Origin: a virus
DNA: 22,259 bases
Strand: one strand, 5' to 3'
Virus record (IMG/VR): IMGVR_UViG_3300008262_000441
Location: 1 to 22,259 of that record
The translations under genes were made by a program, and so were the position numbers. Shown piece by piece: positions 15,212-17,318 of this stretch; positions within the stretch are counted from its first letter, which is position 1; the number at the start of each line of letters is the position of its first letter. Below the pieces are notes generated by a model, which did not search any database, was not told the DNA's origin, and saw only the letters and a list, made by a program, of their open reading frames with translations.

Positions 15212-15646
15212 TTATAGATAATCCTTGCGACTATGATGTTCTGGAACTATCTTTCCTAATCGAATGGTAAGTAATCCATCTTCAAAGATGACTTCTCGGA
15301 CTTCTGTGTCGTCTGAGAGAGTCCATGCCCTTTTGAAACTTCGTTGAGCCAAACCCTTGTGGATAAACGTCCTATCCGATTCAGTATCTGATTTTTGCCC
15401 TTCGATAAAAAGTTTTCCATACTCTGTGAAGACATTTACTTCCTCCTTTTTGAATCCCGCAAGCGCAATCTCTAAATGAGATTCTACATTATTTACCTGA
15501 ATTAGATTGTAAGGTGGATAATTGTTTGTAGTTTCGTGAAGATTAAATAGACGATCAAAATATTCGTCCATTCCAATACTATTACGTGTAATCCTATCCA
15601 TCAAGGTAGGAAGATCCGCAGCAGAATATCGCGTAATGTTAGTCAT
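15212..15646 (-). CDS. hsp20: Small heat-shock protein, Hsp20 / alpha-crystallin family
   Basis: 144 residues. ATP-independent holdase chaperone. The alpha-crystallin domain spans about 45-135: YNLIQVNNVESHLEIALAGFKKEEVNVFTEYGKLFIEGQK, then FIHKGLAQRSFKRAWTLSDDTEVREVIFEDGLLTIRL, with the conserved A-G-F/K and GLLTI.L signatures. N-terminal arm (1-44) includes MDEYFDRLF. The start has a strong ribosome binding site, AAGGAG, eight bases before the ATG. hsp20 next to gp43 is a signature of T4-like cyanophages, thought to guard scaffold or host proteins. It is a single-gene unit: promoter TATAAT upstream, terminator directly downstream. A UUCG-loop hairpin marks the 5' end of its message. Confidence 0.97.
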   Translation of the reverse strand: MTNITRYSAADLPTLMDRITRNSIGMDEYFDRLFNLHETTNNYPPYNLIQVNNVESHLEIALAGFKKEEVNVFTEYGKLFIEGQKSDTESDRTFIHKGLAQRSFKRAWTLSDDTEVREVIFEDGLLTIRLGKIVPEHHSRKDYL

Positions 15647-15764: not shown

Positions 15765-16781
15765 TTACGAAACGCAACTAGTAGTATCAATATTGAAAAG
15801 TTTATTTAAATTAGAAACTTTATCATCTTTATATTTTTTGGCTGTTTTTTTCCACTCATTTCCAATCCTTTTTACAGTTTTGTCATCCATCCACTTATCA
15901 ATATAATATAAGCACCAAGAAACCAATTCTTGAAATTGAGAAAATCTTGTGCCCTTTTCTGGGAAAAAATTATTCTCTTTCCATTCTTCAATAATTGTAG
16001 TAATTCCATCATATGTGTCTGGCATCGTGTTTGATTTCTTTTTATCAAGACGTTGAAGCCCTTCTATCAAAAGATCATTTTTAGTGCCGTATTTTTTAAG
16101 TGACATGAGAGCGGCACAAATCCAAGTTTGATTCCAATTAGAATCTATCGTAATTAAAGAATCTAAAGATTTAATTTCTTCAATAAAATTAAATGTCTGT
16201 CCAGGAATAACTTCTGGAGAGGTTACTTGGCTAGTATAAGTTTCTGGATAGAAACAATTAGATGCCATATTTAATGCTGTAATAATTTGACCCTTTCTAA
16301 ATTTTTTAGAAAGAGGTTCATAATTAAACATTCCAGTTATAATACCGTAAAACTTCTCTTGATTTGCTTCTGTAGCACTAATAGAATCAAATGTATTATA
16401 ACATTTACGAATCCTTTCAAAGGATTCGAAGGAAAATTCAATAACAAGAACATCTTTGGGAATGTGGTTGCTTCCTCCGTTTACCCAATTCATAGCTCGT
16501 GTATTGGAATCTACCCTAAACTTCGATCCCTTCTTATATTTTTTTCCTCTAACTATATCATCATTTAACAATTTACATACAAAAACAACAGCATGTTCTG
16601 TAATGAATTCGGAAAGATATTTTTTTGCTTTATTCAATCTCCCTTCAGTATCTCTCTGACAAAATACTTCTTCAAGTTCAGAATATTCTGAGTAAGTCAT
16701 CCAATACGAAGTAAGTGTATTAGATTCTTTGATGGGAATAAAAGGTACTATATCACCCATACTATTTTTAATTACTTTCAT
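15765..16781 (-). CDS. ParB/sulfiredoxin-like phage protein with DSNTR motif
   Basis: 338 residues. Residues about 40-100 read CQRDTEGRLNKAKKYLSEFITEH, VVFVCKLLNDD, KKYKKGSKFRVDSNTRAMNW. This resembles ParB-like nuclease-fold proteins, whose usual motif is (V/I)DGNTR; here Gly is replaced by Ser (D91-S-N-T-R95). CYNTFDSISATEAN (127-140) follows, as in related phage proteins. The C-terminal half (about 165-330) is helical with many Trp (WNQTWICAALMSLKKYG; IIEEWKENNF; WCLYYIDKW) and no clear family. Possible roles are DNA or CTP binding or a degenerate nuclease. GAGG sits eight bases before the ATG. It has its own strong promoter and its own terminator between regA and hsp20, which looks like an added single-gene unit. 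Confidence 0.75.
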   Translation of the reverse strand: MKVIKNSMGDIVPFIPIKESNTLTSYWMTYSEYSELEEVFCQRDTEGRLNKAKKYLSEFITEHAVVFVCKLLNDDIVRGKKYKKGSKFRVDSNTRAMNWVNGGSNHIPKDVLVIEFSFESFERIRKCYNTFDSISATEANQEKFYGIITGMFNYEPLSKKFRKGQIITALNMASNCFYPETYTSQVTSPEVIPGQTFNFIEEIKSLDSLITIDSNWNQTWICAALMSLKKYGTKNDLLIEGLQRLDKKKSNTMPDTYDGITTIIEEWKENNFFPEKGTRFSQFQELVSWCLYYIDKWMDDKTVKRIGNEWKKTAKKYKDDKVSNLNKLFNIDTTSCVS

Positions 16782-16837
16782 TTTAAATCCTCTAAATCTA
16801 CCACTTCCAAAAGCAGGTTGTGGGAGGTTACTAAGAA

Positions 16838-16866
16838 ATTATATAATAAAAAAAGACCCCTGTCAA
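16838..16866 (-). promoter_or_regulatory. Perfect sigma70-type promoter with -35 in a terminator loop
   Basis: Minus strand TTGACA (16866-16861), 17-base spacer, TATAAT (16843-16838): both boxes match consensus at optimal spacing. The -35 is exactly the six-base loop of the regA terminator. Transcription would start near 16831, giving a leader of about 50 bases to the ParB-like gene. Confidence 0.93.
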
Positions 16867-16873
16867 GGGGTCT
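16848..16873 (-). terminator. Intrinsic terminator after regA
   Basis: Minus strand AGACCCC, loop TTGACA, GGGGTCT and then a run of six to seven Ts. Perfect seven-base-pair stem four bases after the regA stop. The loop doubles as the -35 of the next promoter. Confidence 0.94.
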
Positions 16874-16877
16874 GATA

Positions 16878-17318
16878 CTATTCAGTTTCTTCTACCTTTT
16901 TCTTTTTTGCGCCAATATTATACTTGGTCTCCAGAATCCAATCCCCTTTGTCCTTATATGACAATACTTTAATCTGATTAAGGGGAGCAATGTCTTGAAT
17001 TTTTGTGACATCCACAATAGTAACAAGACCCCAATCAGCGATTAATTGGGCAATACGATTACGACGCTGAACATCATTTACGGTTAGATTGGCGTGTTTA
17101 CCGTCCAGAGCAAATAGTTCTTTAAAATGCACCAGATAGTATCTACCTTGCTTATGAAGAATATGGCAAGATTGATAGATTTTCTTTTCCTTTCTTGAAG
17201 CAACTCCGATACGAGTCAAAGTTTCACGAACTTTTAAGAAGTCATCTGGTTCATTCAGAATAACTTCAACCATTTGGTCGGGCGTCCACTTTACTTCAGG
17301 TTCTTGAACGACACTCAT
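16878..17318 (-). CDS. regA: RegA translational repressor of early genes
   Basis: 146 residues. In T4 RegA binds the start region of early mRNAs, including its own and those of gp44 and gp45, and blocks translation. The core matches T4 RegA closely by eye: DDFLKVRETLTRIGVASRKEKKIYQSCHILHKQGRYYLVHFKELFALDG (25-73), then RRNRIAQLIADWGLVTIVD and a final WILETKYNIG. It is longer than T4 RegA (122), with an extra 15-residue start (MSVVQEPEVKWTPDQ) and a Lys/Glu tail. It overlaps gp62 by four bases, the T4 order of regA and 62. A strong terminator ends this transcript directly afterwards. Confidence 0.96.
   Translation of the reverse strand: MSVVQEPEVKWTPDQMVEVILNEPDDFLKVRETLTRIGVASRKEKKIYQSCHILHKQGRYYLVHFKELFALDGKHANLTVNDVQRRNRIAQLIADWGLVTIVDVTKIQDIAPLNQIKVLSYKDKGDWILETKYNIGAKKKKVEETE

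Follow-up and report, generated by a model that had tools for sequence, protein, structure and literature searches.

T4-like phages are known to carry composite promoter-terminators, termed PeSLs (promoter-early stem-loop), for which a lower density has been noted in the cyanophage S-PM2 (PMC4503421). Here we analyzed a virus record of 22,259 bp (the window) that belongs to a T4-like cyanophage. Among named phages, Synechococcus phage S-SRM01 was the closest to it, with 45% of the window aligning at 79% identity. PeSL cassettes of T4-type phages, the subject of Arbiol et al. 2010 (doi 10.1093/gbe/evq006) and Comeau et al. 2014 (doi 10.1093/gbe/evu129), reportedly occur in several copies within a genome and border genes that have been exchanged; recombination between copies and measurable promoter and terminator activity are also counted among the marks of the class. 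The element that lies behind regA in the window resembles PeSLs in being compact and intergenic, with a sigma-70-like promoter and a stem-loop terminator, in recurring within cyanophage genomes, 12 of the 13 scanned having one to eight copies each, and in its placement at the edges of exchanged genes.

Comparison with other T4-like phages revealed differences in how the two signals are arranged. In RB49, strong promoters near a terminator have their −35 box 0-39 nt behind the stem (11 cases) and never inside it, so that the promoter is a separate unit behind the terminator, whereas the cyanophage −35 box is the hairpin apex and both signals therefore share the same bases. KVP40 carries elements that combine a terminator with a −10 box, such as GGGTTGACTACGGTCAGCCC-TTTCTTG-TATTAT (six such sites, on one strand, with the −10 box at 7 nt past the stem), and these are similar in having TTGAC within the terminator hairpin. 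In KVP40, however, TTGAC belongs to the 5' arm and pairs with GTCA in the opposite arm, or else TTGC takes its place, whereas in cyanophages TTGAC forms the apex. The ordinary intrinsic terminators of T4-like phages share the GC-rich stem and U-tract, but their UUCG loops, which are the commonest in cyanophages too, hold no promoter box. Judged by sequence, the element is best read as a cyanophage variant of the T4-type PeSLs that would insulate one transcription unit and start the next at cassette joints. Because the RB49 promoter follows the stem and the KVP40 TTGAC sits in the 5' arm, nesting of the −35 box in the loop appears, as far as we checked, to be new, although Comeau et al. 2014 may already describe this loop-nested form.

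Anatomy of the element behind regA

Genes on the minus strand run from the clamp loader through regA, a 338-aa ORF, hsp20 and two small ORFs to DNA polymerase. regA (16878-17318, minus strand; PHROG 242, E 2e-63; Pfam PF01818), which encodes a translational repressor and ends with a stop codon at 16880-16878, is the gene whose transcript would be expected to stop at the hairpin. The 338-aa ORF (15765-16781, minus strand) matched PHROG 2615, of unknown function, and a Pfam search of it returned no domain; this is the gene expected to be under the control of the nested promoter. hsp20 occupies 15212-15646 on the minus strand and is found directly behind regA in 54 of 79 relatives.

The whole element, AGACCCCTTGACAGGGGTCTTTTTTTATTATATAAT (16873-16838, minus strand), starts 4 nt past the regA stop codon and reads directly as AGACCCC-TTGACA-GGGGTCT-TTTTTTATTA-TATAAT. 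The perfect −35 box TTGACA (16866-16861) is separated from the perfect −10 box TATAAT (16843-16838) by a 17-nt spacer (16860-16844) that consists of the 3' stem arm and the T-tract of the terminator. Both consensus boxes and their 17-nt spacing, as claimed in the initial annotation, were thus read directly, and the promoter scan scored the element 12/12 with a spacer of 17, in agreement with the host sigma-70 (SigA) pattern of TTGACA, 17 +/- 1 and TATAAT. A transcript start would be expected near 16831.

A terminator scan returned the identical hairpin, AGACCCCT-TGAC-AGGGGTCT (16873-16854, minus strand), with stem arms at 16873-16866 and 16861-16854 and a T-run that extends through 16848. The GC-rich stem, short loop and U-tract directly behind it are those of an intrinsic (Rho-independent) terminator. 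Folding of a 76-nt RNA gave -22.2 kcal/mol (z -3.6), a stability equaled by none of 200 shuffles, and the hairpin by itself gave -12.7 kcal/mol. The predicted fold allows the first T and the last A of TTGACA to pair with each other, which would give an RNA with an 8-bp stem and a UGAC loop. Accordingly, the stem-loop of the initial annotation is borne out by the sequence, and its six-base loop is the hexamer as counted without this pairing, corresponding to the predicted loop UGAC plus the closing U-A pair.

Recurrence, covariation and spacing in cyanophages

To gauge chance, we used 150 dinucleotide shuffles of the window, which yielded one composite at a promoter score of at least 9/12 and none at 11 or above; the real window holds one at 12/12. 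This corresponds to about 0.007 composites per shuffled window, in agreement with the earlier claim that chance would rarely give both boxes together with the stem. We also scanned 16 T4-like phage genomes (13 cyanophages plus T4, RB49 and KVP40), fetched as 20-kb pieces, with one fixed composite definition applied to the 13 cyanophage genomes and all controls. The enrichment over shuffled sequence that had been proposed as a check in T4-like cyanophages was observed, with 32, 23 and 12 composites at scores of at least 9, 10 and 11 in the 13 genomes compared to 0.4, 0 and 0 in their shuffles. At the same scores, a reversed −35 box gave 3, 1 and 0 and wrong spacings gave 1-8, 0-1 and 0. The reverse-complement box TGTCAA proved a weaker control than expected (18, 10 and 2), because cyanophage terminators in general often have a −10 box behind them, with a peak 7-10 nt behind the stem. 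Part of the composite excess is therefore a habit of placing a −10 box behind a terminator rather than a property of TTGACA itself. Twelve of the 13 cyanophage genomes carry one to eight composites each, the window fragment carries one, and none was found in S-CRM01, the other genome of the 13.

The contribution of TTGACA was evident from the loops. TTGAC was present in 18 of 429 cyanophage terminator loops, making it the third commonest pentamer behind two of the UUCG type, compared to 0 of 142 terminator loops of T4, RB49 and KVP40. A −10 box (4/6 or better) was found at 16-18 nt in 15 of the 18 TTGAC-loop terminators as opposed to 78 of the 411 others (Fisher p 2e-8); the remaining three TTGAC loops lack one.

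The class is also widespread in IMG/VR as well as in cyanophage genomes, and we reject the idea that the element in the window is unique. The pattern CCC-TTGACA-GGG-N12-16-TATAAT matched at least 119 stretches, compared to 5 for an identical stem with a TGTCAA loop, and the opposite stem GGG-TTGACA-CCC matched at least 120, indicating that two stem types of opposite polarity carry one common loop. The control in which TAATAT replaced the −10 box was uninformative, many of its matches being TATAATAT shifted by two bases. In cellular genomes, a stricter pattern gave 13 matches, mostly in Firmicutes assemblies; no match had a title that names a cyanobacterium.

Because TTGACA, TATAAT and the inner three pairs were fixed in the patterns with which the covariation sets were fetched, these sets inform only on the outer pairs and the spacing. 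Among the matches listed, T-tail sites of the first set were paired at stem pairs 4-6 in 91-97% of cases compared to 42-53% after permutation, using C-G, A-T, G-C and T-A pairs, and those of the opposite-polarity set were paired at the outer positions in 94-98% compared to 72-85%. Covariation in the listed T-tail group reached about 7 pairs, whereas in listed sites without a T-tail no covariation was seen past pair 5, where pairing was at chance. All 86 T-tail sites listed had a spacing of 16-18 nt (19, 64 and 3 at 16, 17 and 18 nt, respectively), and none had the spacings of 15 and 19 that the pattern permitted. For all 78 T-tail loci listed, the best protein match among the 16 reference genomes was to a T4-like cyanophage and not to T4, RB49 or KVP40. 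These counts (78 loci, 35 and 47 distinct stems, 86 spacings) refer to distinct sequence contexts and represent samples rather than totals, and related phages among them are not independent. That the stem covaries while TTGACA and the 16-18-nt spacing are kept supports the proposal, made for the window, that the two functions constrain each other.

Gene borders and the regA 3' end

Where elements of named phages were looked up, they lay between the stop codon of one gene and the start of the following same-strand gene, with one exception in S-SKS1 (22766), where the annotated downstream start overlaps the element. These included elements between pstS and hli in Bellamy, between a porin gene and a small ORF in S-SRM01, between a baseplate gene and psbA and between an ORF and hli in S-SKS1, between an ORF and hli03 in S-PM2, and between an ORF and a restriction endonuclease gene in P-SSM4. 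The P-SSM2 element at regA (142791-142813) has a hairpin that shares bases with the regA stop, and an element of S-SM2 lies ahead of hli.

The gene behind regA was variable among 80 regA loci from IMG/VR, 79 of which had usable flanks. No composite was found at regA in the 54 loci with hsp20 within 300 nt, compared to 6 of the 25 others (p about 6e-4, a hand estimate from the counts), and the window falls among the loci without hsp20 directly next to regA. Directly behind the PHROG 2615 ORF is AAAACCGAATAA (15766-15755, minus strand), a copy of the last codons of regA that is likely an insertion scar. The identical sequence, followed by the ancestral terminator, lies behind different ORFs in five other loci (L004, L031, L063, L082 and L388) and in S-SKS1 (82081-82092). 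In the window, the type of terminator usually found right behind regA instead follows the inserted ORF, ahead of hsp20 (15748-15730, minus strand). We conclude that the regA 3' end is a recurrent insertion site. In the usual regA-hsp20 arrangement (loci L003-L079), this terminator has TATAAT about 15 nt behind the stem and no recognizable −35 box.

In L388 the element AGACCCCTTGACAGGGGTCT, with T as its outermost base, stands ahead of the PHROG 2615 ORF, and in L038 the ORF that follows it is a different one. PHROG 2615 relatives adjoin psbA in S-RIM8 and purM in ACG-2014d. The ORF at the equivalent place in RN05-S is ParB-like and shows no homology to the PHROG 2615 ORF. The scar, the usual terminator, the shared element and the PHROG 2615 relatives elsewhere fit a gene cassette that was brought in with its own stop-start element. 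Together with the regA counts, the different ORFs of L388 and L038 place the composite at boundaries of genes that were gained, lost or swapped.

Possible working of the element, alternative readings and other promoters

It is improbable that the element is a terminator only, in which TTGACA would be favored as an RNA loop, for stability or as a protein site such as that of RegA, and the −10 box would be incidental AT-rich sequence behind the T-run. The predicted fold, which closes the outer pair of TTGACA and leaves a small UGAC loop, and the three TTGAC loops that lack a −10 box are consistent with such a role. On the other hand, the −10 box goes together with the TTGAC loop (15 of 18 compared to 78 of 411) and, among the matches listed, stands at 16-18 nt and mostly at 17; moreover, RegA does not easily explain elements beside psbA, hli or porin genes. 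Slightly less probable still is a promoter whose inverted repeat is a feature of the DNA, for example an operator around the −35 box, that causes no termination. Phage promoters of a separate group, in which CCC/GGG flanks TTGACA and no T-tail is present (60 distinct contexts listed), could be taken in its favor. However, it is the listed stems with a T-tail that covary to about 7 pairs, whereas those without one are at chance past pair 5, and the elements lie directly behind stop codons.

It is hardly credible that a terminator and a promoter, both strong, met at one site by chance. These genomes have many perfect promoters and many terminators, but the expected 0.007 composites per shuffled window and the recurrence of composites over the 13 genomes, 32 compared to 0.4, argue against coincidence.

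We therefore regard it as very probable that the element is a nested terminator-promoter that ends the clamp-loader/regA transcript, starts the next unit and marks an inserted cassette. The original suggestion that a single element stops one transcript and begins another is the best-supported reading given the enrichment, the position between genes and the covariation, with both activities predicted. Polymerase leaving the clamp-loader/regA operon would make the RNA hairpin and stop at the U-tract (about 16853-16848). The double-stranded form of the same element would be a consensus host sigma-70 promoter with its −35 box at the hairpin apex, from which host RNA polymerase with the primary sigma factor would start near 16831, presumably early, into the PHROG 2615 ORF. 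Placed at the left border of a cassette that was inserted between regA and hsp20, the element would render that cassette transcriptionally independent.

Since the T-tract is the promoter spacer, termination and initiation would not be able to occupy the site simultaneously. More tentatively, the two may be coupled as a switch, with a terminating polymerase covering the promoter and a promoter-bound one blocking the terminator, and the shared 36 bp may act as a seam for cassette exchange. Because its promoter spacer is terminator arm plus U-tract, the element offers a natural test of interference between termination and initiation. By packing a stop and a start into a short unit that can travel with a gene, the design would help explain how cyanophages gain genes without upsetting neighboring operons, and elements adjoin psbA, hli and pstS. 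The arrangement can also serve as a simple pattern with which to look for borders of transcription units in cyanophage genomes.

The window holds another sigma-70 promoter that scores 12/12, TTGACAGTGGGCAAGAAGAGGAGTATAAT (9198-9170, minus strand), which has no terminator, and perfect promoters alone are thus not rare in these phages. This promoter lies within the end of a gp41-like helicase gene, ahead of mazG, and close relatives of its sequence were found in DSL-LC03, S-T4 and Bellamy. Another set of phage contigs (L100, L101, L109, L118, L129, L145 and others) carries TTGACAGGGCCCAAAATTATGTGTTATAATTTTGGCGC, a promoter that lacks a T-tail and whose −10 box is enclosed by a palindrome; it often occurs as two copies per contig and looks like a repeated operator. 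Perfect promoters with an inverted-repeat spacer, for example TTGACA-GGGGATCGGTGATCCCC-TATAAT, were observed in RB49 (115005 and 121708), Syn9 (18628) and S-T4 (71618).
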